IMG/VR virus record: IMGVR_UViG_3300006931_000002
Location: 1 to 64,000 of that record
DNA: 64,000 bases
Origin: a virus
Reading direction: 5' to 3' (one strand)
Shown here: positions 3,306 to 61,967 of the stretch, piece by piece
How the letters are laid out: each line of letters opens with the position of its first letter
Numbering within the stretch: position 1 is the first letter of the stretch
Made by a program: the position numbers and the translations under genes
The notes under the pieces: generated by a model
The model's database searches: none
What the model was told of the DNA's origin: nothing
The model's input: the letters and a program-made list of their open reading frames with translations, nothing else

Positions 3306-6300
3306 ATGGCTTCCGGCCTCCTACCGCCCGCAGTCATACGCCTCATAGCTGATGCGGCCGAGATGGCCGCTGGGCTGCGGGAAGCCACCACTCAGATCAA
3401 GGCGGCAGCCGAGCAGGGTGCCGCGGCGGTCAAGGCCGCAGACGACTCGATGGCCCTGTCCGGCGAAGAAGCGGCAGCCAAGTGGGGTGCGGCATGGAAT
3501 GCCGAATGGGCACGTCAGGGGGCCGCTGCTGAGAAGGCGGCGCTGTCCACGCAGGTCGCCCAGCAGCGGGCACTGACTGAGGGTACCGCCGAATATGACG
3601 CTGCGATGGCCGCCCGGGTCCGGGCGACCGAGGCGGCCGCCGAGAAGGAGAAGGCCGCGCAGAGAGCCGCCTTCTCCGACATGAACGACGCGGTGAGCGC
3701 GTTCGGCCGGAAAGCCGCAATTGGGTTGGCCGGCGTTGCCGCCGCCTCCATCTACATGGCGGCCAAGTTTGACGCCTCGATGGAGCAGGTTCACACCGCC
3801 GCTGGGGCATCACAGGGCGAGGTCGACAAGCTCAAGGGTTCTGTTCTCAACCTGGCCTCGCAGACCGGGCAGGGACCTGACGCGCTGGCCGCCGGCCTGT
3901 ACCACGTCGAGTCGGCCGGTTATCGCGGCGCGCAGGCGATGGACATCCTGTCGGCCGCGGCGAAGGTCGCGACGATCGGTAACGCGAACTTGGAGGACAC
4001 CGCCCAGGCAATGATCGCCACCGTTGCCTCGGGTATCGGCGGCGTGAGGGACATGAACGACGCCGCCGCGCTCCTCAACACCACCGTCGGTATCGGCGAC
4101 ATGCGGATGTCGCAGTTGGCCAAGGCCATGGCGACCGGCATCCTGCCGACCGCCGCGACCGCCGGCCTCAAGTTCACCGACGTCGCCGCAGCGCTGGCCA
4201 CGTTGACGGACAACGCCACACCAGCCGACCAGGTGGCCACCCACCTGCGGATGACGCTCACGTTGATGGCCGCGCCCACCGACAAGGCTGCGAAGGCGCT
4301 CGCCGGGATCGGCATGTCGCAGAACCAGTTGGCGATGGACATGCGGCAGCCCAACGGCCTACTTGTCGCCGTCGAAGACCTGCGAACCCATCTGGGGGCG
4401 ATGCAGACCGACGCGCAGAAGGCTGCCGCGATGCAAACCCTGGCGGACGCGTTCGGCGGTGGCAAGACCGCCGGCAGCATCATGACGCTGATCCAGGAAC
4501 TGCCGCGTCTTCAGGACAAGTACAAGGCGCTGGGCGACTCGACGTCACGGGCAGCCGGACTCCAGGAGTCATGGAGAGCCACCCAGGGCACCTTTAAGAA
4601 CTCGCTCGACCGGCTCAAGTCCAGTGCAGAAGTGCTCGGCATCGAACTCGGCAACAAGCTGATCCCACCCCTGGAAAAAGTCATCGAGTTTTTCGCGAAA
4701 CACAAGGCTGTCGCCGAGGGCCTCGTCATCACTCTTGGCGTGCTCATGGGCCTGTCGGTTGCGATGTGGATCGCCGGCATCGTCAGCGGGATCATCGCCG
4801 CCACGGCAGCGATGATCGGATTCGACGCTGCGGCCGACGCAAACCCGATCGGCGCGTTCGTGCTCCTCGCGGAAATCGCCATTGCCGCGCTCATCGCCGC
4901 ATTCTACGAGATCCGCAAGCACTGGAAGGGTATCTCCGAGGGCTTCATTACCGCCTGGCATGCGATCGAAATCGCCTGGTTCGCTACCTGGGATGCGCTG
5001 AAAACCGCGTGGTTCGCTGTCGTTGGCGCTCTCGAAACGGCGTGGCGTGCCGTGTCGGGTGCTTTCGTCACCGCCTGGGATGCGGTTGTCGGCGCGTTGA
5101 AGGCCGCGTGGGGTGGGATCGTCACTGCCTGGGATGCGGTTGGCTCGGCTCTGTCGACCGCGTGGCATGCGACCCTGTCGGCTTTGGAAACGGCGGCGCG
5201 GCCGTTCGTCGACGCCTGGCGGGCCACCGTCGGCGGGGTCGAAACATCCTGGCACGCCGTAACTCACGCTCTCGAAACCGCAGCCCGGGTCACCTGGAAC
5301 GCGATCAAGACGGCGGCGCTCGACGCCTGGCACTTCCTAGAGCCGATCCTCAAGGGCATCGCCACGGCGATCAACTATCTGCTGCTCCCGATCCGCCTTC
5401 AGGTACTTGCCTGGGAGATCGCCTACCGGGCCATCGAAAAGGCGGTCACATGGTTCTGGCACAGCGTCCTGGAGCCGTTCGGCAAGGGTGTTGCCTCGGT
5501 CGTCACCGGCACGATTGGAACGGCGATCCGCTGGCTCGAAACCGCTTGGCGAACCGTGTGGAATGCGCTCGGAACCGCGGTCAACTGGGTGTGGAACTCG
5601 GTGCTGCTGCCCGCCTTCCATGCGATTGTCTCAGGCGTCGAAACGTTCATCATCGGTAACCTTCGCCTAGCGCAGGCGATTTGGCACACGATCTGGTCGG
5701 CGCTCGGCACGGCCGTGTCGTTCGCGTGGAACTCGGTGCTGCTGCCGACGTTTCATGCGATTGCGACAGCGTTTGATGCGGTCATCGGCTTCGGGCTGCG
5801 TCTGCTTCAGGCGACCTGGAACGCTGTCTGGGGTGCTATCCGCACGGCTTTGTCCGCGATTTGGAATGGTTTCCTGTCGCCAACGTTTCATGCGATCGCC
5901 TCGGCGTTTGACGCTGTGATCGGGTTTGGGCTGCGCGCGTTGCAGGTTACCTGGAACACGATTTGGGGTGCGATCCACACGGCCGTGTCCACGGTGTGGA
6001 ACTCGTTCTTGTCGCCGACGTTCCATGCGATCAGCGGAGCGTTTGACGCGGTGATCGGCGCAGCGTTGCGCGGGCTGAAAACGACGTGGGACACGCTGTG
6101 GGGCGGGATCAAGTCGACGGTTACCACGATCTGGGGTGTCCTCAAGCCGATCTTCGATTCGATGGGCCGGGCGATCAAGGACATCACGGGTGGTATCACG
6201 GGTATCGCCAAGGGTGTCGGCGGGTTCGTCGGCAAACTGAACAAGATCGCCCCGTTCGCTGAGGGCGGTTCCCCACCAGTCGGCCAGGCCGTCCTTGTCG

Positions 6301-6575
6301 GTGAGCGTGGCCCCGAGCTGGCCGTGTTCGGCGCCCCGGCCTACATCCACCCTGCCAACGAGACCAAGTCGATCCTCGCGGGTGGGAAGGCGTCCGGCGG
6401 ATGGGTGGGGATGCAGCCGTCGGGCTCGTGGGGCGGCGGAGGGCAGACAACGATTGTCGTCGAGGTGCCGGTGAACCTCGACGGCCAGGTCCTGTTCAAG
6501 TCAACGCAGAAACAGGCCCTTCGGTACAACAGGCGGAATCCGAGTAATGGCCTGGCGCGTGTCGCTGGGCTCTGA
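3306..6575 (+). CDS. Tail tape measure protein
   Basis: 1089 residues, the largest gene of the early tail block, starting at ATG after a GGGGG site. The N-terminal 130 residues are Ala-rich coiled coil. Residues about 140-400 carry the TP901-type core (FDASMEQVHTAAGAS, LAAGLYHVESAGYRG, DNATPADQVATHLRM). A hydrophobic pair of membrane-like segments follows (about 470-530). After that come Trp-rich helical repeats, first with an 11-residue spacing and then as four 45-residue units. The C-terminus (FAEGGSPPVGQAVLVGERGPELAVF) is the common closing motif of actinophage tape measures. It sets tail length and is ejected with DNA. Confidence 0.93.
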   Translation: MASGLLPPAVIRLIADAAEMAAGLREATTQIKAAAEQGAAAVKAADDSMALSGEEAAAKWGAAWNAEWARQGAAAEKAALSTQVAQQRALTEGTAEYDAAMAARVRATEAAAEKEKAAQRAAFSDMNDAVSAFGRKAAIGLAGVAAASIYMAAKFDASMEQVHTAAGASQGEVDKLKGSVLNLASQTGQGPDALAAGLYHVESAGYRGAQAMDILSAAAKVATIGNANLEDTAQAMIATVASGIGGVRDMNDAAALLNTTVGIGDMRMSQLAKAMATGILPTAATAGLKFTDVAAALATLTDNATPADQVATHLRMTLTLMAAPTDKAAKALAGIGMSQNQLAMDMRQPNGLLVAVEDLRTHLGAMQTDAQKAAAMQTLADAFGGGKTAGSIMTLIQELPRLQDKYKALGDSTSRAAGLQESWRATQGTFKNSLDRLKSSAEVLGIELGNKLIPPLEKVIEFFAKHKAVAEGLVITLGVLMGLSVAMWIAGIVSGIIAATAAMIGFDAAADANPIGAFVLLAEIAIAALIAAFYEIRKHWKGISEGFITAWHAIEIAWFATWDALKTAWFAVVGALETAWRAVSGAFVTAWDAVVGALKAAWGGIVTAWDAVGSALSTAWHATLSALETAARPFVDAWRATVGGVETSWHAVTHALETAARVTWNAIKTAALDAWHFLEPILKGIATAINYLLLPIRLQVLAWEIAYRAIEKAVTWFWHSVLEPFGKGVASVVTGTIGTAIRWLETAWRTVWNALGTAVNWVWNSVLLPAFHAIVSGVETFIIGNLRLAQAIWHTIWSALGTAVSFAWNSVLLPTFHAIATAFDAVIGFGLRLLQATWNAVWGAIRTALSAIWNGFLSPTFHAIASAFDAVIGFGLRALQVTWNTIWGAIHTAVSTVWNSFLSPTFHAISGAFDAVIGAALRGLKTTWDTLWGGIKSTVTTIWGVLKPIFDSMGRAIKDITGGITGIAKGVGGFVGKLNKIAPFAEGGSPPVGQAVLVGERGPELAVFGAPAYIHPANETKSILAGGKASGGWVGMQPSGSWGGGGQTTIVVEVPVNLDGQVLFKSTQKQALRYNRRNPSNGLARVAGL
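5570..6110 (+). repeat. Four 135-bp tandem repeats inside the tape measure gene
   Basis: The codons for FHAI recur with exact 135-base spacing, with CATG at 5619, 5754, 5889 and 6024. Each unit encodes about 45 residues of the form WN-(S/G)-(V/F)-L-(L/S)-P-(A/T)-FHAI followed by a V(I/E)-(G/T)F hydrophobic stretch. Such units set tail length in steps. Confidence 0.85.
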
Positions 6576-14385: not shown

Positions 14386-15480
14386 TTGCCTCCCGACTTT
14401 GCTGACATAGCCAGCTACCAGGCTGGCGCCAACCTCGCCACCTACAGGGCGTCAGGCCCGGACCGCATCCTCATCAAGGCGTCGCAGGGTGTCAGCGGCA
14501 CGCCGAACCCCTACTTCCCCGACTGGTGGAACACGGCAGGCAGCGTCGGACTGGTCCGAGGTGCCTACCACTTCGCCACCACCGGCCACACCCCAGCCGA
14601 CGAGGCGTCCAACTTCCTCGCCAAGGTCCAAGCCGCGGGCGGTGTCGGCCCTACCGACTGGCTGTGTATCGACGCCGAGTCGCCGAGCAACCCGACGTTT
14701 GCCCACGGCGCCTACATCGCCGCCATCGTCACAGCCCTAGTCAGTGCTGGCCACACATCCGGGGTCATCTACTCCGGCACTTGGTGGCTACGCCCGGCCG
14801 GGCTCACCGCGGCGATGCTGCCCCCCGGCTGGCGCCAGCTTCACATCGCCGACTACTCAACGACCCCTGACGGTTCGATCGGCCTGCCGCCCGGGTGGAC
14901 GCGGGATCAGATCGTGGCCCGCCAGTACACGTCGGCCGCCACCCAGCCGGGGATTCCCGGCCCCTCGGACCGATCTCGCGTCCTGCACGAATGGCTACCC
15001 GTCTTTGGAGGTCTCGTGCTCGACGACCCCACGGCCAACCAGCTTGTCGGCCTCGTCCAGAAGGCGCTCAACACCGGCACTGGCGTCGGACAGCAGGACT
15101 GGGCGTCAACCAACCGGATGCTGCTGTCGCTGGCCCAGTCGCTGTTCAACCAGAACAACATGCTGATGCAGGCGCTGGGCTGGAACAAGGGCGACCTGTC
15201 ATTGGCCGCCCGGTCGGATGCGCTCGCCTCCGAACTCGGCCAGGTCGTCGACTACCTCGGCCCGACCGGTGAGGTAGTGACTGCGCTGAACGCGATCGCC
15301 CAGCAGCTTGTCGCCGTTCTGGGCGCCATCAAGGCGCTGCCCGTGTCGACCGCGGGTGGGGTGGACCTGACGCCTGTGCTGTCGCGTCTGGACGCGCTGG
15401 CGGGCGCGCTGACTGGGCTGACGTTGCGGGCCGTTCTGCCACCCGCGACCGCGACCGCGCTGGTTCGGCCGCAGGTCTGA
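14386..15480 (+). CDS. GH25-family endolysin (muramidase)
   Basis: 364 residues from TTG 14386, five bases after AAGGGGG. The N-terminal about 200 residues are a glycoside hydrolase 25 fold: an opening Asp in DFADIASYQ, ILIKASQGVSG, GAYHFA, the catalytic D-x-E in WLCIDAES (D96, E98), and a late ARQYTS strand. It would cleave N-acetylmuramyl bonds of peptidoglycan. There is no signal peptide, so it needs the holin. The C-terminal 150 residues are helical (DLTPVLSRLDALAGALTGL) and may bind the cell wall or oligomerise. Confidence 0.9.
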   Translation: MPPDFADIASYQAGANLATYRASGPDRILIKASQGVSGTPNPYFPDWWNTAGSVGLVRGAYHFATTGHTPADEASNFLAKVQAAGGVGPTDWLCIDAESPSNPTFAHGAYIAAIVTALVSAGHTSGVIYSGTWWLRPAGLTAAMLPPGWRQLHIADYSTTPDGSIGLPPGWTRDQIVARQYTSAATQPGIPGPSDRSRVLHEWLPVFGGLVLDDPTANQLVGLVQKALNTGTGVGQQDWASTNRMLLSLAQSLFNQNNMLMQALGWNKGDLSLAARSDALASELGQVVDYLGPTGEVVTALNAIAQQLVAVLGAIKALPVSTAGGVDLTPVLSRLDALAGALTGLTLRAVLPPATATALVRPQV

Positions 15481-23222: not shown

Positions 23223-25154
23223 TCATGCCGAGGGGAGGGCTGCGGTCCACACATAGCGCGTATCCCGACCCTGCCCAACCGACTCGGCCAGGCCGGCGCG
23301 CATCCACGGATGAACCAGGTCCTTCATCACCTTCGACCGGCCCCAGCCGGTCATTTCCTCCAACGCCTGCCGGGCCATACCCCCAGAAGGTGCTGCCTTT
23401 CGCATTGCCTCGCGGCACACTTCCTCCGCACGACTACCGGACAGCACAGGGCCCTTCGGAGCGTCCGGTACGACCACCGGCAGGATGATCCCCGGCCGTA
23501 CCGTCGGCAGGTCACGAACCTGCGCGATTTCGCCCTCAACGGTGGTATCCGAGACCATTGTTGGCGTAGGGTGGGCGATGGCCGCCTTCTGCTGGTCGAG
23601 GGCCTTTTCGGCTTCCGCCCATTCGGCATCCGGCCGGGCGTTGCACTCGGCCATCGCCTCGGCGATCACTGGCCTGTTGTCCTTCTCGACCCGGCGAGAT
23701 ACGACCGGTATTCCGCGCCGATGGCCGGGGGTTTCCGCGACGAACTGGCCCTTGTCGTCCATCGTCAGGAGTTCCACGCCGCCGCCGTTCAGCACCGATT
23801 CGGCGGCGCCCTCGCCCATCGCGAACTGGATACGGTCCTGAAGCATGCGGCGGAACCGCCACGACCACACCCCAGGGCCGTTCGTCACCTGCGCGATCAG
23901 AATTATTTTGATGCCCGCGGCGCCGGTCCGTAGCGCCATCTTCTGCAACCATTCGCCCAGTTCCTCGCCCTGGTTCGACGAGGCGAAGCGGGGGCCTTCC
24001 TCGATGAGCAGCACATACACTGGTTCGTCGGCGGACGGCTCCCACACCTGCCAGTCCCGGTCGGCCATCAGCCGTTCGCGGCGTAGCAGCAGATGCCAGA
24101 ACGTTTCCAGAAGACGCAGGAAGTCGGCTGGCTGGTCGATGTAGCGGAATACCGAGCCGGAGAAGAACCGGAAGTCGCGGCCCTGGGCGCCGTCAGCAAC
24201 AAGCCAGGCCAGGTCGGGGGCCTGCTGGTACAGCTCCATCAGGCGAAGCATCAGCTCGGACTTTCCGATCCGGGAAGCGCCCGCGACCAGCAGGTTTGTC
24301 GCCCCAACCTCCTGGTCATACATGACCAGGCCGTAAGGTTCGCTGTCCCGGTAGGGGCCGACCTTGCCCGGTTCACAGATCGACTCTGCGGGCTGCTGGG
24401 CGAGCAGGTCGAACGCCTTTCGGGGGTCCATTTCCTGGACGTGGAGTTCCCCGAGCCACAGGTAGCCGTCAGGGTCTGCGGTGAAGGTGACTTCGCCGGC
24501 TCGCCGTTCGAGCCGTGACGTCAGGTTGTTGAGCTGCTGGCTATCGAGGTTGAGCGTGTACCCGTGGGGGACTCGCAGACGGTAGGTGTGGCCGACTCCG
24601 CGGTCGTCGCGGATCGCATAGCAGTCGACATGAGGCATGCCCTGGGCCTCGGCCACCGCAGGCCATGCCGCCTTCCTTGCGGAGAGGAAGGCCTCCCGCT
24701 CCGCAGCCCTGCGGAGGTCGTCGCGGCGGGTCCGCAACGCCGGATGCGTAGCCAGGCGTACCGTGCCGGCGGCTGCGGCGACCGCGGTAAGCAGGCCCAC
24801 GCCTGCGAAGCCGAGTGCGGAGCCGGCTGCGGAGGCTGCTGCGAAGGCCGCCCAGATGACCAGCTCATTGCGGAGGGGGCTGTTGCGGACCGCAAAGTCG
24901 ACCGCAACCCAGCCCGCAACCGCAAGGAGGATCGCAACCCACCACAGTCCGGCGATGCGGAGCACCGCACCGCCCGCAACCGTGGTCACCGCAATCGCTG
25001 CGGGGATCGCAAAGGGCTTGCGGGACGGTGCGGAAGGGTTGCGGAGTGCGGTGCGGGGTTGCGGAGTGCGGTGCGGGGTTGCGGAGCCCGTCGCGGAGCT
25101 GGGTGCGGAGATGCGGACCAGCTCCGCACGTCCAGTCGAGCGGGCGGCGGCCAT
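23223..25154 (-). CDS. FtsK/SpoIIIE-type DNA translocase, TraB-like
   Basis: 643 residues, AAAGGA site before ATG. Residues about 45-130 contain membrane helices (AGLWWVAILLAVAGWVAVDF, ASAAGSALGFAGVGLLTAVA). The motor domain has Walker A GASRIGKSE (about 292-299) and Walker B VYVLLIEEG (about 385). The C-terminal 70 residues (RQALEEMTGWGRSKVMKDL) look like a winged-helix DNA reader as in FtsK-gamma. Size and layout match the TraB proteins that move double-stranded DNA between Streptomyces hyphae without a relaxase. The adjoining wall hydrolase and Spd-like proteins support a transfer role. Part of the N-terminal linker is coded by TGCGGA-type repeats. Confidence 0.85.
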   Translation of the reverse strand: MAAARSTGRAELVRISAPSSATGSATPHRTPQPRTALRNPSAPSRKPFAIPAAIAVTTVAGGAVLRIAGLWWVAILLAVAGWVAVDFAVRNSPLRNELVIWAAFAAASAAGSALGFAGVGLLTAVAAAAGTVRLATHPALRTRRDDLRRAAEREAFLSARKAAWPAVAEAQGMPHVDCYAIRDDRGVGHTYRLRVPHGYTLNLDSQQLNNLTSRLERRAGEVTFTADPDGYLWLGELHVQEMDPRKAFDLLAQQPAESICEPGKVGPYRDSEPYGLVMYDQEVGATNLLVAGASRIGKSELMLRLMELYQQAPDLAWLVADGAQGRDFRFFSGSVFRYIDQPADFLRLLETFWHLLLRRERLMADRDWQVWEPSADEPVYVLLIEEGPRFASSNQGEELGEWLQKMALRTGAAGIKIILIAQVTNGPGVWSWRFRRMLQDRIQFAMGEGAAESVLNGGGVELLTMDDKGQFVAETPGHRRGIPVVSRRVEKDNRPVIAEAMAECNARPDAEWAEAEKALDQQKAAIAHPTPTMVSDTTVEGEIAQVRDLPTVRPGIILPVVVPDAPKGPVLSGSRAEEVCREAMRKAAPSGGMARQALEEMTGWGRSKVMKDLVHPWMRAGLAESVGQGRDTRYVWTAALPSA

Positions 25155-26440
25155 GGGGGTCCTTTCGTTACGGAGTGCGGAGGGGTGCGGACCGGCAGTG
25201 CGGAGGTTGCGGACCCTGTTGCGAGGTCAGGTGCCGATCCGCTGGGTGTCCTTCGAAAGGTCGGTGGTGAAGAACGTGTCGTGCAGCTCGAACAGGTTCT
25301 TCTCGGCGCGAAGGGCACTGGTGGCTGCGTTGGTGATCAGGTCGGCGCTCAGGCTGACCGCGCTGTGAACAGGCTTGGCGAGCCCGCGGCGGGCCGCTTC
25401 ATCGGCCGCGTATCCGATGCCGTCGGCGACCACGGTCAGAAACTCGGTGGTCCACATGTAGAGGGCGGCGACCTTCTCGCCCTTCGACAGGTCGACGTCT
25501 TGGATGCCCTTGGCTGCCTTGAGTAGCGCCTCGAAGCCGGGGTCCTGGAGGTGTTCACGCCAGTTCAGGTTGTAGGGGTGTGCGACGGCCATTGCGGTGC
25601 TCCTTGCGGGGTTCGATGCGGGCTGCGGACTGGTTGCGGAGGTGGTTGCGGACCCTGCTGCGGGATGCGGTGCGGAGGGCGCGGAGTCCGCAACCGGTGC
25701 GGAGGGGGGCGGTGCGTACGCATGCGGACGGCCCCACGTTGCGGAGCCTGTTGCGGAGTGCGGTGCGGAGGGCTCCGCAACGATGCGGGGCGTTGCGGAG
25801 CCGAACAGCCGGGTCCGCAGCATCCGCAGCAGGTCCGCAATCACGGCGACCGCCTCGACGGTGAACGGCGCTGCGGATGCGGGCGTCGGCCCGGTGGGGC
25901 GGCTGTACGTTGCGGACCCGGTTGCGGAGCCTGCGGGCTTGACGAATCTCAGTGCGGACCCGGGTGCGGGCCTGCGTCGGTTGCGTGCGGATACCGCAAC
26001 GGTGGTGCGGACGAACGCGGTCCCGCGGCGGGTGTTGCGGATGTTCGCACGGGCACGTCGCAGCGACGGCCGGGCCCGGTCCGCATGCCGCTCCGCAGCC
26101 TGCACGGTGGGCCGTAGCCGTGCGGAGCCGGCGACCTTGCTGCGGACCGCGGTTGCGGCCCTGCGACTCCGGCTGCGGACCCTTGCGGTCCACGCGGTGT
26201 AGATGGCGGGAGCAAACAGGCGGAGCAGCCACAAACCGAGGGCGACGGTTGCGGCGCCGACCGCGAGATCATGCACCCAGTCGGTGGGGGTGCGCGGCAG
26301 CGCGGGGATTGCGACGACGTCCACGGCTGCGGCGGCGATCTGGGTGCTGATCGGCGGGGCAGGTGCCGGGGCTGGGTGCAGGTCGATGTGACTGTCGCGG
26401 AGGGCAGCGGAGGCGAGGATGTTGCGGACGTAGTTCTGTG
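24670..26440. repeat. Array of TGCGGA hexamers across translocase and hydrolase genes
   Basis: By eye about 38 copies of TGCGGA occur on the + strand, against about 10 of its complement, usually as GTTGCGGA or GGTGCGGA. Dense clusters lie at 25020-25220 (including the 72-base gap between genes) and 25620-26190. Copies occur in several codon phases and in non-coding DNA, so the DNA sequence itself seems selected. Candidate recognition sites for the translocase. Confidence 0.75.
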
Positions 26441-27242
26441 TCTCCGGGAAGGGCGGGACGCCGTGATACCGGTTGACCGCCCCCTGTCCGGCGTTGTAGC
26501 CGGCCAACGCCAGGCCGATGTCGCCGCCGTTGGCACGGATCAGGTCGGCGATCATGTCGGCCATGGCGGGGATCGCGTCCGCCGGGTCGAGTGGATCTTT
26601 CCGCCCGTCGTTGTCGCCGTCCTCGCCGCGGGTTGCCCACGTCGTCGGCATGAACTGGGCGATGCCCACAGCGCCAGCAGGGGAGCTGATCGTCGGATCG
26701 AAACCCGACTCCTGCCATAGCAGGGCGCGCAGCAGATCCCGGGGGACACCGGTCCGCGTCGCCGCACGGTCGATGTAGTCGTTGACGCCGGGCGTGCCGG
26801 GGCGGATCGCCGTCTGGGCATGCCACTGGGCGAGCGGGGTGACGATCGTGCCCCAGGCGGCGCCTTTCGCCTCGACGACCTGCCCGCCGCCGACATACAT
26901 GCCGACGTGGCCCGGCTTCTCAGCTTCCGACCCGGAACGGAACACAAGATCGCCCGGTTGGAGGGCGGACGGAGACACCCAGCCGGCGGCGCCGATCTGG
27001 TCGGTGGTGACCCTCGGCAAGGCGATGCCCGCAGCCGCGTAGGCGTGCTGGACGAGGCTGGAGCAGTCCCACGAACTGGGTCCATTCGACCCGTATATGT
27101 AGGGTTTGCCGACCTGCGCCTGCGCGAACGCGACCACAGGTGCAACGTTCGGCGTGCCTGCGGAGGCGGGCGGCGTACATATGCCGGCAGTGGCGGTGGC
27201 CGCAACGACCACCGCCACCATGCGGGCGGGCAGACGGCTCAC
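25227..27242 (-). CDS. NlpC/P60 + lytic transglycosylase membrane protein
   Basis: 671 residues. Signal peptide (1-28). NlpC/P60 domain with Cys in SSWDCSSLVQHAY and His in KPGHVGMYVGGG. SLT domain (about 155-280) with catalytic Glu in LLWQESGFDP and GIAQFMPTTW, GYNAGQGAV. One transmembrane helix follows (VAIPALPRTPTDWVHDLAVG then ATVALGLWLLRLF). A long basic, disordered cytoplasmic segment coded by the TGCGGA array comes next, then a C-terminal helical domain (REHLQDPGFEALLKAAKGIQ). Such two-enzyme hydrolases open the wall in Gram-positive conjugation systems. Its position directly upstream of the translocase gene in the same orientation fits a transfer complex; a virion or lysis role is less likely. 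Confidence 0.85.
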   Translation of the reverse strand: MSRLPARMVAVVVAATATAGICTPPASAGTPNVAPVVAFAQAQVGKPYIYGSNGPSSWDCSSLVQHAYAAAGIALPRVTTDQIGAAGWVSPSALQPGDLVFRSGSEAEKPGHVGMYVGGGQVVEAKGAAWGTIVTPLAQWHAQTAIRPGTPGVNDYIDRAATRTGVPRDLLRALLWQESGFDPTISSPAGAVGIAQFMPTTWATRGEDGDNDGRKDPLDPADAIPAMADMIADLIRANGGDIGLALAGYNAGQGAVNRYHGVPPFPETQNYVRNILASAALRDSHIDLHPAPAPAPPISTQIAAAAVDVVAIPALPRTPTDWVHDLAVGAATVALGLWLLRLFAPAIYTAWTARVRSRSRRAATAVRSKVAGSARLRPTVQAAERHADRARPSLRRARANIRNTRRGTAFVRTTVAVSARNRRRPAPGSALRFVKPAGSATGSATYSRPTGPTPASAAPFTVEAVAVIADLLRMLRTRLFGSATPRIVAEPSAPHSATGSATWGRPHAYAPPPSAPVADSAPSAPHPAAGSATTSATSPQPASNPARSTAMAVAHPYNLNWREHLQDPGFEALLKAAKGIQDVDLSKGEKVAALYMWTTEFLTVVADGIGYAADEAARRGLAKPVHSAVSLSADLITNAATSALRAEKNLFELHDTFFTTDLSKDTQRIGT

Positions 27243-28312
27243 CCTGCCAGCTCCCGCGCTGCCTGTTCCATTTCCTCGCGGACTTCACGCTTCCGGCTGT
27301 CGATCGTCCGCGGCGACACCCCAAGCGCCTCAGCGGCGCGTTTGGTGAAACCTGGCTCCGACAGCGACCGGCCGGAGTTGACTTCCCGGCGAATCCACTC
27401 CCGCTGCGCTTCCCGTCGCACCTCGTCCGGGTCCTCTTTGACTGGGCCGGAGGCCAGTGGCGCGGGCACCTCCGCCGGGAGGGGTTCCAGCGCGGCGATC
27501 TGCGGCTGAGATTCGACTGCCCTCAGCGGGGTTGGGGCTGGAACCTCCTGTGGTGTTGAGGGCTGCGGCTCATCGAGGTCGACAGTCGCCCGGATGGGTG
27601 CCGTCGGCGCTGTGACCGCGTCCAGGGGTGGAAGGCCAGCAGTCGGCGCCGTCTTCTCGGCCACGCCTCCGAACAGTTCCGTGCCGGCCGGGGGTCTCCG
27701 CGACGCCTCCAACGCGAGCAACTGTACGGTCGCCTGATCCTCAACCCGGGCGACCTGACGGCGGACCGCGGCAACGGCCAACTGCGCGGACGCCCTCGAC
27801 GTCTCGGCCTCAACCCACTGGGCGTCCTCCGGGGACAGGGTTGGGCGGATCGCCCGGTTCAACGTCCACCACAGGGTTTTCGCGACGATCGAAACTGTTG
27901 ACCCGACGATGGCCATCGCCACACCGCCGACGCGGAGCCCTTCCAGGAGGATCGCGGTGACGGTGACGGCGAGCAGCGCCCAGCCGACACAGTCGACAAC
28001 CAGGCGCCGATTAGGCCGGTACCGGACGATGAACGACATGCCGAGCACAGCCAGCCAGGCAAGATCGAACACCGCGCCAGCGAGGTAGGCCGTCCATGTG
28101 CTTTCCAGCAGGTGCGCGATCGACACGGTCGACCAAGTGACCGAGATGAGAGTGAGGACCAGTACGAGGCCGCCCACCCCCTGGACTGCAATCGCGTCCA
28201 CGTCGCGGGGCAGCTTCGGAACAGCCACCTTGCGGACGCGGGTGATCGGGGCGGTGACCCCGTCGACCGTGTGAGTGGACTCGTACTTTTCGGTCTGGAT
28301 GCGGAACTTCAC
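27239..28312 (-). CDS. DUF2637/Spd-like membrane protein with C-terminal HTH
   Basis: 357 residues. Four transmembrane helices (about 42-140; GLVLVLTLISVTWSTVSIAH, LAGAVFDLAWLAVLGMSFIV, CVGWALLAVTVTAILLEG). A coiled coil and a Pro-rich cytoplasmic linker follow, then a C-terminal helix-turn-helix (TKRAAEALGVSPRTIDSRKR). This layout is typical of plasmid-borne DUF2637 proteins next to Streptomyces transfer genes, thought to help intramycelial spread. Its stop overlaps the hydrolase start. Confidence 0.75.
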   Translation of the reverse strand: MKFRIQTEKYESTHTVDGVTAPITRVRKVAVPKLPRDVDAIAVQGVGGLVLVLTLISVTWSTVSIAHLLESTWTAYLAGAVFDLAWLAVLGMSFIVRYRPNRRLVVDCVGWALLAVTVTAILLEGLRVGGVAMAIVGSTVSIVAKTLWWTLNRAIRPTLSPEDAQWVEAETSRASAQLAVAAVRRQVARVEDQATVQLLALEASRRPPAGTELFGGVAEKTAPTAGLPPLDAVTAPTAPIRATVDLDEPQPSTPQEVPAPTPLRAVESQPQIAALEPLPAEVPAPLASGPVKEDPDEVRREAQREWIRREVNSGRSLSEPGFTKRAAEALGVSPRTIDSRKREVREEMEQAARELAG

Positions 28313-28530
28313 CGTCCACCATCCGAACCGGCCTGACGGCTCTCCTGGTCAGCCCAGTGGTTGAGCTGCCCCTTCCAAGTGTCGAGATGGCCATCGGCGC
28401 CGACCGCCATACAGAAGAAGGTGCCGGCAAGCGCGCAGGCGATCATCCACCGCAGGCCGACCCTGCGGGCGGCGAAGGCGAGGATGGCCACAGAACCGAC
28501 GGCGATCACGCCCACGATCAGCAGGGCCAT
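28309..28530 (-). CDS. Small two-span membrane protein
   Basis: 73 residues from ATG 28530 (GGAG site). Two hydrophobic helices (ALLIVGVIAVGSVAILAFAA and MIACALAGTFFCMAVGA), then a charged tail. Overlaps the Spd-like gene by four bases. Likely a spread or transfer accessory protein by context. Confidence 0.7.
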   Translation of the reverse strand: MALLIVGVIAVGSVAILAFAARRVGLRWMIACALAGTFFCMAVGADGHLDTWKGQLNHWADQESRQAGSDGGR

Positions 28531-28546
28531 GGCTGGGTCTCCTCTC

Positions 28547-29062
28547 TCAGTGCAGGTGGGGGGCGACGACGTGGGTGAGGACAAACCAGAAGCCGGTTCC
28601 GGTTGTCGCCGTGCCGATGGCGACGGCTAGCAGGTGCTTCCACGAGTGCGACGCGGCGAGCGCGACATGCCCTGCGGTCCACAGGGCCAGAAGCAACGTG
28701 AACAGCGGCAGCGCTGCGACCAGCGCGACAATCAGGAAGATCGCCCACGCACCGAGGTGCGCGGGGACCTCGCCGGATGGCGCCTTCCACGGTGCCGGCG
28801 GTGGGGTAGCGAACTCCGGCCATGCCGGTGGGACGCTGTTCGCGACACTGCGGGACATCACCCGCAGTACCAAGTCACCTGGTTCGCGGCCACGTTCGAC
28901 GGTGACCGACAGGTCAACCGGGTAGACGGGTCGCGGGGCGACCGTCGTGGACGACTTCTTTCCCGCCGGGGCCTTGTCGCCCTTGCCGCTCGGGGTGGGT
29001 GCGGGCGGCGCCGACGGTCCCCGCATTCCAGGGATTACCACGGTGTCCGTGTCCGAGGCCAT
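28547..29062 (-). CDS. Membrane protein with disordered N-terminus
   Basis: 171 residues from ATG 29062. The N-terminal 45 residues are Pro/Lys-rich. A short beta segment (YPVDLSVTVERGREPGDLVL) follows, then two transmembrane helices (WAIFLIVALVAALPLFTLLL; AVAIGTATTGTGFWFVLTHV). Part of the tiny membrane protein run that precedes the transfer genes. Confidence 0.7.
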   Translation of the reverse strand: MASDTDTVVIPGMRGPSAPPAPTPSGKGDKAPAGKKSSTTVAPRPVYPVDLSVTVERGREPGDLVLRVMSRSVANSVPPAWPEFATPPPAPWKAPSGEVPAHLGAWAIFLIVALVAALPLFTLLLALWTAGHVALAASHSWKHLLAVAIGTATTGTGFWFVLTHVVAPHLH

Positions 29063-29346
29063 CAGCCGAGCACCCCCGCGGTGACGAACGCGGCGACGAA
29101 CAGGCCGAACGCAAGCACCGTCTGGCGCTTCCACCAGCCGGCGGGCTTGTCGCGGCGGAATCCGAGCGCGACAAGGCGGACGGTCGCCCAGCCTGCGGCG
29201 ATGAGCAGCAGGGAGACGAACATGCCGCCGTGGAGACGGTGGAAGACGGTCGCCAGGCCGATGACGGTCAGCGCGGCGGCGAACGCGAGAACGGACGGAG
29301 ACAGCCTGCGAGGGGTCGTGTTGGGGACGTTCGACGGCGGCTTCAT
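29062..29346 (-). CDS. Small three-span membrane protein
   Basis: 94 residues from ATG 29346 (MKPPSNVPNTTPRRL). Three hydrophobic segments (VLAFAAALTVIGLATVF, GMFVSLLLIAAGWATVRLV, VLAFGLFVAAFVTAGVLG). Its stop overlaps the next start (TGATG). Function unknown; context suggests a transfer/spread role. Confidence 0.7.
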   Translation of the reverse strand: MKPPSNVPNTTPRRLSPSVLAFAAALTVIGLATVFHRLHGGMFVSLLLIAAGWATVRLVALGFRRDKPAGWWKRQTVLAFGLFVAAFVTAGVLG

Positions 29347-29759
29347 CGGGCGACCACCAGGACGGTGAGAAGCAGCATGGCCAGCGCTCCGGCGAGCGGC
29401 CGGGCGAACCAGAACCGGCCGACCCGCTGGGCCTTGACGAGCTGGACGCCGTAGAGAACGGCGGTCAGGGCGAGGCCGGCAGCGACGCCACGGTGCAAAC
29501 CCCAGTGGGCCATGGCGAACAGAAGGGCGAAGGCGAGGACGATCCGCGGCGTCCACCCCTCGACAGTGGCGCCGTGGAAACGGGCGACCACCCTGTCCTT
29601 CACGGTGCTGGTCGTGGACTGCGGTTCGACCGGGATGCCGTAGGGCGGGGTGCGGTCGGAGTCGGTGTAGGACGACATGCGGCCAGCGGGGTTGGTGCAG
29701 GCCGGCTCGTCGACGTAGTCGGAGCCGTCCCACACGTCGGGGTCAGCGGGAATGGACAT
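29343..29759 (-). CDS. Small membrane protein
   Basis: 138 residues from ATG 29759 (MSIPADPDVWDGSDYVDEP). A polar, acidic N-terminal half and three hydrophobic stretches after about residue 68 (IVLAFALLFAMAHWGLH, GLALTAVLYGVQLV, AGALAMLLLTVLVVA). Overlaps both neighbours by four or fewer bases. Confidence 0.7.
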   Translation of the reverse strand: MSIPADPDVWDGSDYVDEPACTNPAGRMSSYTDSDRTPPYGIPVEPQSTTSTVKDRVVARFHGATVEGWTPRIVLAFALLFAMAHWGLHRGVAAGLALTAVLYGVQLVKAQRVGRFWFARPLAGALAMLLLTVLVVAR

Positions 29760-29881
29760 CAACGCACCTTGAGGTAGATGAGGATCGCGACAGCGAGCGC
29801 GACGAGAACGGCGATGACGAGGTGGAAGGCCCAGCCATGAGGCTGTGGCTGGCGGGGATAGCCGTTCTGAGCGCTGGTCAC
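29759..29881 (-). CDS. Tiny single-span membrane protein
   Basis: 40 residues from GTG 29881 (TSAQNGYPRQPQPHGWAFHL). One transmembrane helix (HLVIAVLVALAVAILIYL). Start and stop both overlap neighbouring genes, a strong sign that it is translated. Confidence 0.65.
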   Translation of the reverse strand: MTSAQNGYPRQPQPHGWAFHLVIAVLVALAVAILIYLKVR

Positions 29882-29964
29882 GAGCCGCCACCCTTAGAGC
29901 AGATCGAGTCGTGGTCGCCGAGAATCCGGCCACACTCGGAGCAGGCAAGATCGTCGTGGTTCAT
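29878..29964 (-). CDS. Minute Cys-rich peptide
   Basis: 28 residues from ATG 29964 (MNHDDLACSECGRILGDHDS). A C-x2-C pair plus a later Cys suggest a half zinc ribbon. Both ends overlap the neighbours by four bases. Very short, so uncertain. Confidence 0.45.
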   Translation of the reverse strand: MNHDDLACSECGRILGDHDSICSKGGGS

Positions 29965-30194
29965 GGGGCGCCGTCCCGGCCGAAGTACTGGTCCGGGGTG
30001 ATCAGCTCGAACGGCTTGACGTGCCACGCCTCGCCGCTCTGACCGGTCACCTTGACGGTCTTCCGGTAGCGGGTACTGCCTTCGGGTTCGCACCGCCAGC
30101 AGTGGCATGCCGTGATGGTCAGCGGTCCGCCGATCGACGGGTTCCGGCCGTCGTAGTAGACCGTCTCGGCGACGGTGAGCGCGGGGCCGGTCAT
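29961..30194 (-). CDS. Small hypothetical protein
   Basis: 77 residues, beta-rich (ALTVAETVYYDGRNPSIGGP). One CHCWRC cluster suggests metal binding. Follows WhiB with a four-base overlap. Function unknown. Confidence 0.65.
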   Translation of the reverse strand: MTGPALTVAETVYYDGRNPSIGGPLTITACHCWRCEPEGSTRYRKTVKVTGQSGEAWHVKPFELITPDQYFGRDGAP

Positions 30195-30562
30195 GCTGCT
30201 ACCGCCGTCCGGGGAGACGGCTGGTGCTCGCGGAGCAGGGCGCTGCGTTCCCGGTAGGTCAACCCGCCATAGACGCCCCGCTTCTCACCGGTTCTCAGCG
30301 CCCATCTCAGGCAGGGCAGCCGAACCGGGCAGCCATAGCAGACAGCTTTGGCGCGGCGGCTCTCGGCGGCCGAGCCGGATCGGGCGGGGACCATGTTGAC
30401 GGCATCGGCGACCTGGCAGGCGGCACGCTGCCGCCAGTGCGGGTCGAACGGCCGTTCGGACACGGTCAACGTTCGGACTCTGGGCGCACTGACGGCGCCC
30501 ATCTTCGAGGCTGCGGCCTCGTCGGGCGCGCGCAACGGCGCGCCCGGTGGCACGATCGCCAC
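30191..30562 (-). CDS. WhiB-family iron-sulfur transcription regulator
   Basis: 123 residues from GTG 30562 after AGGAGG. The four cluster-binding cysteines are present (C49, C75, C78, C84, in AAC and AVCYGCPVRLPCLRWAL), followed by the G(V)YGG turn (RGVYGGLT, usually GxWGG) and a basic C-terminal tail for DNA contact. WhiB proteins bind the sigma subunit of RNA polymerase; phage versions can block or redirect host promoters. It is the first gene of the minus transfer operon and likely controls it. Confidence 0.9.
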   Translation of the reverse strand: MAIVPPGAPLRAPDEAAASKMGAVSAPRVRTLTVSERPFDPHWRQRAACQVADAVNMVPARSGSAAESRRAKAVCYGCPVRLPCLRWALRTGEKRGVYGGLTYRERSALLREHQPSPRTAVAA

Positions 30563-36710: not shown

Positions 36711-36900
36711 ACATCCTCTCCGCCCTGAAGGGCGAAGATTCCCGCCTGCTACGCCGCTGTCGGCGTCAGCTTCGGGTGGGTTCCCGCTTCGCCGCGCTGT
36801 GCCGGCACGGATGCCGGTCTTACCTGCGCTCCACGGGCAGACACCGCCAGTCCGGCGGCCAAAGCGACGTTGACCGCCGCGTTCACATCCCGGTCGTGCA
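36711..36900 (-). ncRNA. Candidate guide (omega) RNA region of TnpB
   Basis: In this family the guide RNA overlaps the 3' end of tnpB and runs to the element end, with host flank as guide. Here it would end around 36711 and take its guide from the interrupted gene at 36710-36690 (minus strand). The hairpin CGCCCTGAAGGGCG (36721-36734) lies inside. Extent is inferred, not seen. Confidence 0.4.
36721..36734. repeat. IS end hairpin (tnpB side)
   Basis: CGCCC-TGAA-GGGCG, a perfect 5-bp stem 10 bases inside the element end. Such hairpins are the TnpA recognition structures. Confidence 0.75.
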
Positions 36901-37954
36901 CCGACCCGCAGGCCGCACACGTCCACTCGCGGACGGCCAGCGGTTTCGGACCGTCCTTCACCCCGCAGGCCGAACAGGTCTGCGAGGTCGGCTCGAACCG
37001 GCCGATCTTCACGAAACGGCGCCCATACAACGCCGCCTTGTACTCCAACATGGCGACGAACGCTGACCATCCGGCGTCGTGCACTGACTTGGCCAGCCGG
37101 GTACGCGCGAGCCCCTTCACCGCCAGATCCTCCACAGCGACCGCTTGGTTCTCGCGGATCAGCCTCGTGGACAACTGGTGATGAAACTCGCGCCGCGCGT
37201 CGGCGACCTTGGCGTGCGCACGGGCCACCTTCACCCGAGCCTTGGCCCGGTTCGCCGAGCCCTTCTGTTTGCGGGACAGGTCCCGCTGTGCCTTCTTGAG
37301 CTTCTTCTCCGCTCGGCGTAGGAACTTCGGCGACTCGACCTTCGTGCCGTCTGACAGGACCGCGAAGTGCGTCAGCCCCAGGTCGATACCCACCTCGGAT
37401 GCGGCCGCCGGCAACGCCTCCGGGTCGGTCTCCACGACGAAGCTCGCGAAGTACCGACCCGCACTGTCCTTGACCACCGTCACCGATGACGGGACCGACG
37501 GCAGGCGCCGCGACCAGCGCACCTCCACATAGCCGATCTTCGGCAGGCGCAGTTTTCCATCCCTGACCGACCATCCGGCGTTCGCCGTGAACCGGACCGC
37601 CTGTCGCGTGTCCCGCTTCGACTTGAACCGGGGAGCGCCCATCCGGGGCCGCTTCCCCTTCAGTCCGTCGAAGAAGTTCCGGTAGGCCACATCCAAATCC
37701 CGGAGCGACTGTTGCAGCACCACCGCTGACACGTCGCCGAGCCAGGCTCGCTCGGGCGTCTTCTTCGCCTCGGTGATGACCAGCTTCGACAGGTCGCCGG
37801 ACTTCGGAAACGGCAGCCCATCCGCGCGGGCGGTCTCGCGGACGCGAAGCGCGTCGTTGTAGACCACCCGCGCACACCCGAACGTCCGGGCCAACGCCTT
37901 CTGCTGGCCGACGGTCGGGTACAGGCGGAAGCTGTACCGAAGCTGCACGATCAC
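36749..37954 (-). CDS. tnpB: TnpB, RNA-guided nuclease of IS605 family
   Basis: 401 residues. N-terminal RNA-binding region (YSFRLYPTVGQQKALARTFG), then a RuvC-like core with all three acids: Asp in GIDLGLTHFAV (about 190), Glu in AVEDLAVKGL (about 273), Asp in HDRDVNAAVN (about 354). The zinc ribbon TCSACG ... WTCAACG lies between the last two. TnpB uses a guide RNA from the element end to cut the empty donor site and keep the element. The 3' end stops 38 bases before the element end, where the guide RNA should form. Probably active. Confidence 0.93.
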   Translation of the reverse strand: MIVQLRYSFRLYPTVGQQKALARTFGCARVVYNDALRVRETARADGLPFPKSGDLSKLVITEAKKTPERAWLGDVSAVVLQQSLRDLDVAYRNFFDGLKGKRPRMGAPRFKSKRDTRQAVRFTANAGWSVRDGKLRLPKIGYVEVRWSRRLPSVPSSVTVVKDSAGRYFASFVVETDPEALPAAASEVGIDLGLTHFAVLSDGTKVESPKFLRRAEKKLKKAQRDLSRKQKGSANRAKARVKVARAHAKVADARREFHHQLSTRLIRENQAVAVEDLAVKGLARTRLAKSVHDAGWSAFVAMLEYKAALYGRRFVKIGRFEPTSQTCSACGVKDGPKPLAVREWTCAACGSVHDRDVNAAVNVALAAGLAVSARGAQVRPASVPAQRGEAGTHPKLTPTAA

Positions 37955-37970
37955 AGTCTAGCATTGGCTT

Positions 37971-45312: not shown

Positions 45313-45983
45313 ACACCTCCGACGCTCTCACCGCGGCCCTTGGTGCCCTGCCTGCTGGCATCACCGTCCCGGACGTCGCCGACTCGGCGCGGCTCGTCGA
45401 CCCGGCCGAGATCCGCGCCGACCAGATCGCCGAACGCCTCTCCGAACTGATCCCGCCGCTGTGGACGGACGCCACAGCCAGCCACCCAGACATTGCCGCA
45501 TGGGCCGATCGTGTGGCCGCCGGTGACACCTGCTCGCTGCTGCTCGTCGGGCTCGTGGGTCGCGGTAAGAGCCACCAGGCGTATGGAGCGCTTCGCCGAA
45601 TCGTGGAGCGGTCATGGCCCCGCTCCTTGTCGATCGTCGCCGGCCCAGCGCCGGATCTTCTCGACGATGCCCGCCCGTCTCCGGGTGTAGATGGCCGCGA
45701 GGTGATCCGCCGCTACCGGGAAGCCGACGTTCTGATGTTGGACGACGTCGGCGCCGAGAAGGGCTCCGACTGGGTTGGCGAACAACTCTACCGGATCTTG
45801 GACTACCGGTATCGCTACCTGCGGCCCACGCTCGTCGTGTCGAACCTTCCCCCGGAGGCACCCCGGGAAGCGAACATCCACACGCTGGCGGCTCATCTCG
45901 GCGACCGGCTGTTCTCGCGGCTCTGCCAGATGTGTCAGACGGTCGTCATCACCGGCCCAGACCGCCGCCGGGCGGCCCGGTGA
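45309..45983 (+). CDS. DnaC/IstB-like helicase loader ATPase
   Basis: 224 residues from GTG 45309 overlapping the initiator stop. AAA+ motifs: Walker A GLVGRGKSH, Walker B VLMLDDVGAEK, and LVVSNLPPE with LGDRLFSRL as the sensor/arginine-finger region. The short form fits phage helicase loaders, which place DnaB on single-stranded DNA at the origin. Stop overlaps the DnaB start. Confidence 0.88.
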   Translation: MNTSDALTAALGALPAGITVPDVADSARLVDPAEIRADQIAERLSELIPPLWTDATASHPDIAAWADRVAAGDTCSLLLVGLVGRGKSHQAYGALRRIVERSWPRSLSIVAGPAPDLLDDARPSPGVDGREVIRRYREADVLMLDDVGAEKGSDWVGEQLYRILDYRYRYLRPTLVVSNLPPEAPREANIHTLAAHLGDRLFSRLCQMCQTVVITGPDRRRAAR

Positions 45984-47299
45984 CTGACACGCTGCCGCAC
46001 GACATTCCCGCGGAACAGGCCCTACTCGGCGGCATGCTGGCGTTCCCTGCTGCGATGGCTGATGCGGTTGAGCTGGTCAAGGGCGAGCACTTCTACCGGC
46101 CGGCACACCAGACCGTGTTCGACGTCCTCGTCGACATGTTCACCGAAGGGCAGCCGACCGGCACAGTTGCCGCCGCCGCTGAACTGGCCACCCGGGATTT
46201 GCTCGGCAAGGTCGGCGGCCATGACTACCTCCACACCTTGGAAGCATCGGCAACGACCGCGGCGAACACCACGCACTTCGCGCGAATCGTCGTCGACCGG
46301 GCAACCCGTCGACGCCTCGCCGAGGCCGGTGTCGCCGTCCAACAACTCGCCCTCGGCCCCGGCGCGGACGCCGACGAACTAGTCGACCGCGCGCAGACGG
46401 CCGTCTTCGCCGTCTCAGAAAGCCGTCAGGACGAGACAGCCCGGACGGTGGGGGATCTGCTTCCTGACACGCTGGCGGCGCTGGAAACGCCGCTTGACGG
46501 GCCGCAGGGTGTCATGACGGGCATCGCCGACTTGGACGAGGCCACGCAGGGTCTGCGCCCCGGGCAGGTCTGGGTGATCGGCGCGCGGCCGTCGGTCGGG
46601 AAGTCAACACTGGCACTCGGCATCGCTGCGCATGCGGCCATCCGCCAGAAGATCCCCACCGTCTACTTCTCGCTGGAGATGCCCGCCGCGGACCTCATGC
46701 AACGCCTACTGGCAGCCGAGGCCGGCGTGTCGCTGACTGCTTTGCAGAAGCACACCCTGTCAGAAGCCGACTGGGATCGGGTCGCCCACCGGATCGGCCC
46801 CATCACCCAGGCGCCGCTTGTCATCGACGATGCGAGCGCGGTCACGGTCGCCGAGATTCGGGCGAAGGCCCGGCGGATGTGCCAGCGCGACGGGCTCGGT
46901 CTGCTGGTCCTCGACTACCTCCAACTGGTCACGCCCGATGGCAGGTCGGAGAACCGGCAGCAGGCGGTAGCGGCGATGTCGATCGCCATGAGGACTCTGG
47001 CGAAGGATCTCGGCATCGTCGTGGTCGAGGTGGTCCAGTTGAACCGGGCCGTCGAGGGTCGTGCTGAGCGTCACCCGCAGTCGTCGGACATCCGGGAGAC
47101 GGGGCAGATCGAACAGGATGCCTACGGGATTGTGCTGCTGCATCGCGAGGACATGCACAATTCGATGTCGCCGCGGGCCGGGGAAATCGACCTGATCGTC
47201 GACAAGAACCGTGGCGGTGTCCGGGGAACCGTGTCGGCGGTCTATCAGGGTCACTATGCGCGGATTGTTGGAATGGCCCCCGATTGGGCGGATGGTTAG
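45980..47299 (+). CDS. dnaB: DnaB-family replicative helicase
   Basis: 439 residues from GTG 45980. N-terminal domain opens with PHDIPAEQALLGGMLAF and HFYRPAHQTVFDVL. RecA-like motor: GARPSVGKSTLALG (Walker A), YFSLEMPAADLMQRLLA, LLVLDYLQLV (Walker B) and SDIRETGQIEQDAYGIVLLH. Normal family length. With loader and initiator it forms the element's own replisome entry, so replication should not need the host DnaB. Confidence 0.95.
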   Translation: MTDTLPHDIPAEQALLGGMLAFPAAMADAVELVKGEHFYRPAHQTVFDVLVDMFTEGQPTGTVAAAAELATRDLLGKVGGHDYLHTLEASATTAANTTHFARIVVDRATRRRLAEAGVAVQQLALGPGADADELVDRAQTAVFAVSESRQDETARTVGDLLPDTLAALETPLDGPQGVMTGIADLDEATQGLRPGQVWVIGARPSVGKSTLALGIAAHAAIRQKIPTVYFSLEMPAADLMQRLLAAEAGVSLTALQKHTLSEADWDRVAHRIGPITQAPLVIDDASAVTVAEIRAKARRMCQRDGLGLLVLDYLQLVTPDGRSENRQQAVAAMSIAMRTLAKDLGIVVVEVVQLNRAVEGRAERHPQSSDIRETGQIEQDAYGIVLLHREDMHNSMSPRAGEIDLIVDKNRGGVRGTVSAVYQGHYARIVGMAPDWADG

Positions 47300-61208: not shown

Positions 61209-61967
61209 GTGATCAGCCGCCAAGACTCCCGCCCGGCCTACCTTCAGATCGCGGACGACCTCCGCGAGGACATCGAGTCGCGCCGACTGGCAGCCGGCGC
61301 GCAACTGCCTACCATCGCCGAGCTTGTCGAGCGGTACGACGTCGGCACGAACACTGTCGTGCGCGCCATTGGCCATCTCCGCTCGCTCGGCCTAGTGGAA
61401 TCCCGCCAGGGGATGGGCAGCTACGTGCGCGAGGTTCAGCCCTGGATCGCGATCTCGTCGGAGTGGTGGTCGCCTCCCGGCAACGGAGAGTCGGACCACT
61501 GGACGCGGGTCAACCGGGAGCACGGCCACACGGGCTCCCAGGACGTCATCTTCGTTGGCACCCGCGTGCCGCCCGAGCGGATTCGCGACGAGATGGGCCT
61601 TGGCGACGATGGCACGGCGGTTCTTCGGGACAGGGTCCTGTTCCAGGACGGCTTGCCGATGCAGCTCGCCCGTAGCTGGTTCCCGCACGCGGTGGCCGAT
61701 GGAACCCCGCTTGCCGAAAGCCGGAAGATCAAGGGTGGGACGCCGCGGATTCTCGCCGAGCTGGCCGAGCCCCCAGTGGAAGTGCGGAAGGAGACTGTCG
61801 CCCGACCGCCGACGCAGGCCGAGCGTACGGCCCTCAACCTCCCGGAGGGCATCCCGGTCCTGGACATATTGATGACCGTGGTCAACGGGTCGGGCGAGGT
61901 GATCGAGGTCGGGGAGGTCGTCGCCCGTGGCGACCGACACCGACTTCGGGATCGCCATCCCGCCTGA
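61209..61967 (+). CDS. GntR/HutC-type regulator (KorSA/TraR-like)
   Basis: 252 residues from GTG 61209 (GGGAGG site). N-terminal winged helix (RPAYLQIADDLREDIESRRL, LPTIAELVERYDVGTNTVVR, GLVESRQGMGSYV) and a UTRA-like effector domain (VLRDRVLFQDGLPMQLARSW; TQAERTALNLPEGIPVLDIL). Regulators of this type control transfer and kill genes on Streptomyces conjugative plasmids and pSAM2-like elements. Here it may repress the WhiB/transfer operon or its own promoter. Confidence 0.85.
   Translation: MISRQDSRPAYLQIADDLREDIESRRLAAGAQLPTIAELVERYDVGTNTVVRAIGHLRSLGLVESRQGMGSYVREVQPWIAISSEWWSPPGNGESDHWTRVNREHGHTGSQDVIFVGTRVPPERIRDEMGLGDDGTAVLRDRVLFQDGLPMQLARSWFPHAVADGTPLAESRKIKGGTPRILAELAEPPVEVRKETVARPPTQAERTALNLPEGIPVLDILMTVVNGSGEVIEVGEVVARGDRHRLRDRHPA

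Follow-up and report, generated by a model that had tools for sequence, protein, structure and literature searches.

A candidate TraB-type DNA transfer cassette in the genome of a temperate tailed phage

The IMG/VR virus record IMGVR_UViG_3300006931_000002, 115,477 bp in total, raises the question of why a tailed phage carries genes of the kind known from the transfer regions of Streptomyces plasmids. The window analysed here comprises bases 1–64,000 of that record. It contains a minus-strand operon of ten genes, running from a WhiB gene (30,562) to g035 (23,223), which encodes a TraB/FtsK-like translocase (g035), a cell wall hydrolase (g036), a four-transmembrane protein (g037), tiny membrane proteins and a WhiB regulator (Table 1). 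An earlier sequence-only reading of the window had regarded this operon as a conjugation-type module in what may be a phage–plasmid hybrid. Our analysis assigns a probability of about 0.6 to the reading that the record is a temperate tailed phage, complete and with a mycelial actinobacterium as its probable host, that bears an accessory TraB-type transfer cassette working as proposed below.

Table 1. Position and basis of assignment of the features in the window
Feature	Position	Strand	Basis
Tape measure protein	3363..6575	+	PHROG 7.8e-49; virion context
Endolysin	14386..15480	+	PHROG 2.2e-19; lysis context
g035, TraB/FtsK-like dsDNA translocase, 643 aa	23223..25154	-	TraB hidden Markov model, AlphaFold2, PDB matches
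47 TGCGGA repeats, candidate clt/TRS-like cis-acting site	24678..26179	37 on +, 10 on -	Repeat search, 6-mer clustering
g036, NlpC/P60 + SLT wall hydrolase, 671 aa	25227..27242	-	Pfam, hydropathy
g037, four-transmembrane protein, C-terminal helix-turn-helix	27239..28312	-	Hydropathy; in other phages the family immediately precedes TraB
g038, tiny membrane protein, 73 aa	28309..28530	-	Hydropathy
g039, membrane protein, 171 aa	28547..29062	-	Hydropathy
g040, membrane protein, 94 aa	29062..29346	-	Hydropathy
g041, membrane protein, 138 aa	29343..29759	-	Hydropathy
g042, single-transmembrane peptide, 40 aa	29759..29881	-	Hydropathy
g043, small soluble protein, 77 aa	29961..30194	-	Hydropathy without transmembrane segment
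WhiB-family regulator, 123 aa, first gene of the operon	30191..30562	-	PF02467, 71 bits
DnaB-type replicative helicase	45980..47299	+	Pfam 1.8e-79
g101, GntR/UTRA regulator, KorSA-like candidate	61209..61967	+	Domain match

Translocase, operon and repeat array

Single-sequence searches with g035 against phages, plasmids, IMG/VR and genomes gave no relative at threshold, and distant alignments were required. A hidden Markov model (HMM) of six actinobacterial plasmid TraB/FtsK proteins matched g035 alone among the 181 phage proteins (76 bits, 1.4e-23); this match is supportive and not independent, because the six sequences had been picked as weak g035 matches. The sub-threshold plasmid matches of g035 were to actinobacterial plasmids in 13 of 15 cases, mostly annotated as FtsK/SpoIIIE or TraB, and Pfam FtsK_SpoIIIE was also matched only below threshold. 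The Walker A motif is intact (GASRIGKS), and hydropathy indicated four N-terminal hydrophobic segments at residues 47–132, which are helices in the AlphaFold2 (AF2) model. The model used was built from 44 sequences, and a single-sequence model with a predicted local distance difference test score (pLDDT) of 41 was set aside for it. In the chosen model the pLDDT was about 90 in the motor core and 75–88 in a C-terminal winged helix (residues ~575–638), which comprises helices at 575–590, 595–602 and 606–619 and strands at 623–626 and 633–636. The top 17 PDB matches to the fold were all FtsK motor domains, with TcpA (conjugation) and EccC lower. Divergence in alignment A1 was too high for pattern scans. 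The identification of a TraB/FtsK-like translocase is upheld by the HMM match, the FtsK fold and the winged helix. A relation of g035 to the Streptomyces TraB family is supported, with conjugative actinobacterial plasmids and plasmid-phages as the nearest characterised context. FtsK/SpoIIIE chromosome translocases share the motor fold, while g035 differs from them in its N-terminal and linker regions and is phage-borne.

All open reading frames (ORFs) of the operon are intact. From the WhiB end, the intergenic gaps are -4, +79, -1, -4, -1, +16, -4, -4 and +72 bases; the +79 gap lies between g043 and g042 and the +72 gap between g036 and g035. The ORF coordinates, the minus strand and the single operon of the sequence-only reading were borne out, the operon being tight, as were its WhiB regulator and its five further tiny membrane proteins (g038–g042). 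Genes were called with a simple codon-based caller (181 genes), which overlooked WhiB; this gene was confirmed via Pfam. Family searches with g043 gave no match.

The order of segments in g036 is an N-terminal hydrophobic or signal segment, NlpC/P60, SLT, one transmembrane segment, a long repeat-bearing linker and a C-terminal helical-looking domain. Both Pfam domains were detected (SLT, 1.6e-21; NLPC_P60, 1.9e-19), in agreement with the wall hydrolase described earlier, and this hydrolase is outside the usual TraB module. Two NlpC relatives of g036 (L011 and L012) were rejected as Rpf-like proteins with NlpC and LysM domains that do not represent the module. The DUF2637/Spd label given to g037 was retained in part. 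Its architecture is like that of plasmid DUF2637 proteins, while the profile test failed: g037 had no match to Pfam DUF2637 (PF10935), the g037 family gave weak matches in 3 of 15 members (best 0.008), and the hhalign probability was 42%.

The gene at 61.2 kb, previously called KorSA-type, does encode GntR and UTRA domains, and it is a KorSA-like candidate that resembles GntR proteins beside TraB operons. The g101 product is about 31% identical to the GntR protein adjoining the TraB operon of an S. mobaraensis plasmid and has a homolog on a TraB-bearing phage contig (G012, 2e-20). An 11-mer comparison and a palindrome scan for an operator common to the WhiB operon and the region upstream of GntR gave no usable motif, so this GntR protein is at most a candidate regulator of the operon.

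A repeat search detected short repeats around the g035/g036 junction, an array that the sequence-only reading had missed. TGCGGA is the strongest 6-mer cluster in the 115 kb (nominal P near 1e-53, uncorrected for the choice of word and place), with the extended consensus GNTGCGGAS. On the plus strand, 37 copies were observed in the 1.5 kb against 0.53 expected. The array extends over the N-terminal part of g035, the 72-bp spacer (4 copies) and the g036 linker, and its copies fall in each of the three coding frames. Coding-strand TGCGGA occurred 13 times in g035 and 22 times in g036, against synonymous-codon means of 1.2 (maximum 5 in 1,000) and 1.6 (maximum 7 in 1,000), respectively. Because of the three frames, the copies in the spacer and the excess over the synonymous-codon simulation, the array is judged to be under selection as DNA; the same three observations ruled out a peptide-level artefact.

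The clt sites described in the literature consist of short direct repeats, within or adjoining tra, to which the Tra protein binds, such as the four TGACACC repeats of pWTY27, whose TraA binds its own clt, and the nine CCGCACA[C/G][C/G] repeats of pJV1; pSVH1 TraB recognises 8-bp repeats via its C-terminal winged helix-turn-helix (wHTH) (PMC3583192). By analogy, the phage array is a good fit to a clt site or TraB recognition sequence (TRS) in position, composition and partner protein, and g035 is predicted to bind it. The phage array has 47 copies across coding linkers, whereas known clt sites have about 4–9 copies in a short site.

Phage context and related elements

The start and end bases of the contig are identical over a 110-bp terminal repeat, so the contig is effectively complete. 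It encodes terminase, portal, head-tail adaptor, tape measure and endolysin, together with DnaB, Rad52, a serine recombinase and a tyrosine integrase, and the virus is a temperate tailed phage. The operon lies between tape measure and endolysin genes on the left and the DnaB helicase gene on the right, as the sequence-only reading had placed it, and terminase and portal were confirmed elsewhere, in the rest of the contig.

Relative G004 is complete (92,425 bp, 123-bp terminal repeat), and its virion block is about 35–85%, mostly 50–72%, identical to that of the present phage at the amino-acid level. TraB and g037 were not found in this complete genome. Since the virion genes are common to both phages and the module is absent from G004, the module is dispensable for virions and is an accessory cassette; it was not confined to a virion-assembly context. 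A close strain, G001 (38 kb, 99.7% identical over 21 kb), ends short of the module. Its tyrosine integrase block differs (48% identical; contig 80.0–83.5 kb, L003:1-3500), which is an apparent integrase cassette swap.

In the terminase clade there were 431 relatives from IMG/VR, of which 80 were kept, and 23 genome matches. The best genome matches were in Streptomyces (56–57%), further ones included Streptosporangiaceae, Paractinoplanes and Micromonospora, and a few were Chloroflexi or Alphaproteobacteria metagenome-assembled genomes. These sequence matches support the view that the terminase relatives occur mainly in mycelial actinobacteria, and the host is probably a mycelial (thread-forming soil) actinobacterium. 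TraB was found in 7 of 23 tested contigs of the clade, and all seven tested actinobacterial plasmids with a terminase match (that of Saccharopolyspora pogona and six Streptomyces plasmids) had a TraB-like gene.

The TraB/clt plasmids of Streptomyces (pSVH1, pIJ101, pJV1 and pWTY27) share with the phage an FtsK-like membrane translocase that ends in a wHTH, short direct repeats within or next to the tra gene, a GntR regulator, the lack of a relaxase (families PF03432 and PF08751 in the phage), and a DUF2637/Spd-type protein (g037 by architecture only) with small membrane proteins. The phage differs from them in the approximately 20% identity of g035, in the NlpC and SLT hydrolase of its operon and in its complete phage genome. 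Phage structural genes are combined with actinobacterial tra genes in PhiNon1 of Nonomuraea (NZ_LT559120.1) and, reportedly, in pZL12/PhiZL12 of Streptomyces (PMC5431353, PMC3583192). In PhiNon1, DUF2637, small ORFs and an FtsK-like gene form one run adjoining phage-type genes. The present phage differs from both in its lineage, its two recombinase genes, its lack of a ParA match, its hydrolase and its array.

The 86-kb S. pogona plasmid NZ_CP031143.1 has a related terminase (40%) and a g159 homolog (53%). A row of genes on it comprises GntR, four small ORFs, DUF2637 and a TraB-like gene, and a dense array adjoins TraB. This array consists of about 40 copies of TCGATCGA in three frames within the linker of the DUF2637 gene; the plasmid differs from the phage in this motif, TCGATCGA, and in having ParA. 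The Streptomyces plasmids of about 130 kb (MBT27, NBC_01278, NBC_00536, NBC_01220 and 11x1) share a terminase relative and one TraB-like gene each, and portal, major capsid and ParAB are annotated in MBT27. They differ in that their terminase is about 30% identical and that the three sampled had no dense TraB array. The related actinobacterial plasmids were typed as 'non-mobilizable'.

A scan of IMG/VR gave 61 TraB loci, and a member of the g037 family lies upstream of TraB on the same strand in 28 of them, some being near-duplicates. Seven loci have a dense array, and six of these arrays lie at or just upstream of the TraB start (about 4e-4 for a random spot over one fifth of the locus, a post-hoc estimate). 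The motifs include 53 copies of CGGACC in three frames (L194), TGCCAG/CTGGCA in three frames (L176), CGAACA in two frames (L201), GATGCG on both strands (L210) and CGAAGC in two frames with a coiled-coil-like peptide (L199), the last of which may be a peptide-level artefact. Such a pattern, one location with differing motifs, is consistent with loading sites that co-evolve. The main outlier among the array controls is a strong GCCGCA cluster at about 8859–9800 of L174, a locus of relative G005, which has no detected TraB; this cluster probably reflects coding repeats.

Proposed function and alternative explanations

From the computed homology, fold, domain layout, operon, array, cassette character and recurrence we infer a mechanism of hexamer formation, binding, pumping, transfer and regulation. 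A g035 hexamer would form an FtsK-like double-stranded DNA pump in the membrane, with the C-terminal winged helix bound to the TGCGGA array adjoining its own gene. Unprocessed double-stranded phage DNA would be driven by the pump either through the envelope to an adjacent hypha or via cross-walls within the mycelium. Anchored g036, whose NlpC and SLT domains would face outward, would open the peptidoglycan locally, g037 and the tiny membrane proteins would act as spread or pore accessories, and the WhiB and GntR proteins would limit expression. The phage may therefore be able to spread by cell contact as well as in particles.

Several observations weigh against this reading. Identity of g035 to any known TraB is only about 20%, and direct tblastn of g035 against phages and plasmids was blank at 1e-5. 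A g036-like domain was not found near the 61 other viral TraB genes. Most of the TraB loci have no dense array: 7 of 61 loci had a top 6-mer cluster of at least 12.5 log units, as did 2 of 41 control windows, and array presence alone therefore fails to separate TraB loci. The host link is indirect, the contig is a metagenome-scale assembly, and a second contig spanning the module was not found.

It is unlikely that the cassette serves intramycelial spreading or segregation only, with the pump carrying phage DNA through cross-walls to all compartments and no donor–recipient mating. Transport of DNA across septa is the normal task of FtsK/SpoIIIE motors, the tiny membrane proteins are like Spd spread genes in size and position, and virions already serve cell-to-cell spread; however, plasmid TraB homologs are tied to intermycelial transfer (PMC3583192) and a wall hydrolase suits cell-to-cell crossing, although both roles are compatible. 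Host takeover or counter-defence is improbable. According to this explanation, a membrane FtsK-like ATPase and a hydrolase would alter the envelope or division or block superinfection, and the array would serve for regulatory or nucleoid-like binding. The top PHROG match of g035 belongs to the moron/host takeover category and the module is accessory, but the conserved pairing with the g037 family, the winged helix and the self-adjacent array fit DNA loading better, and the homologs sit in plasmid transfer operons. The accessory position and the atypical extra hydrolase would also suit a non-functional, decayed remnant of a plasmid or of an actinomycete integrative and conjugative element (AICE) captured by recombination, which is very improbable given the intact and tightly coupled ORFs, the kept Walker A motif and the array maintained at the DNA level. 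A role of g035 and g036 in packaging or ejection, suggested by the likeness of NlpC/SLT domains to tape-measure and internal virion hydrolases, can hardly be upheld for a phage with its own terminase, portal and tape measure and an FtsK rather than a terminase fold in g035, and it was rejected via G004, where the virion set recurs but the module is missing.

The earlier label of phage–plasmid hybrid is at most a candidate reading. The virion gene set is complete, but ParA family PF13614 was not found on the contig, which has two recombinase genes, one of the serine type and one for a tyrosine integrase; with regard to plasmid maintenance, it has DnaB and a plasmid-like single-stranded DNA-binding protein (SSB) homolog, g080. 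The virus may instead be a phage that integrates and whose transfer cassette resembles that of an AICE; of the AICE features, integrases and TraB are present, in what is a phage genome. The likeness to the gene set of Streptomyces plasmids and integrative elements holds for the TraB-related translocase and for the lack of a relaxase, as the two families searched, PF03432 and PF08751, were not found on the whole contig; it is weaker for the atypical hydrolase and for g037, which resembles DUF2637 proteins in architecture only.

Plasmid-phages with tra genes are already known, and the novelty here lies in the hydrolase, in the dense array embedded in coding sequence, in a genome that has recombinases but no ParA match, and in the recurrence in viral contigs. 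A wider reading, to which we tentatively give slightly less than even odds, is that a widespread group of actinobacterial tailed phages has its own TraB transfer systems with coding-embedded, motif-specific loading arrays, spreads by virions and by mycelial contact, and is scored non-mobilizable by plasmid-mobility software. Relaxase-free TraB modules would escape mobility typing, in line with the typing of the related plasmids. If functional, such modules would free phages from the barriers that receptors and particles impose and let them move through filamentous bacterial colonies. Motif-specific arrays would provide an in-silico signature for TraB loading sites and make the DNA choice of each pump testable.

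Other features of the contig

Two further gene products resemble proteins of TraB-bearing plasmids. The product of g085 (51675–52583), more than 20 kb from the operon, is about 32% identical to that of a gene near traB in the Streptomyces phage-plasmids MBT27 and NBC_01278, and g080 (49004–49531) is 50% identical to the SSB of the TraB-bearing Streptomyces plasmid NZ_CP109424.1. At 36749–38387, a TnpB-like gene (minus) adjoins a TnpA/Y1-like gene (plus), which reads as an IS200/IS605-type insertion in the phage. Between 19659 and 21080, GGTCAGCC recurs where successive tiny minus-strand genes join; on the coding strand it is GGCTGACC and overlaps the stop codon, a recurring stop/ribosome-site junction motif. 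In g168 (L003:18318-19589), three HNH-type repeats are followed by an endonuclease VII domain in a single protein. An RNA ligase 1 match (RLIG1, Pfam 8.8e-9), uncommon for such a phage, was found in g131 (L002:17851-18423).

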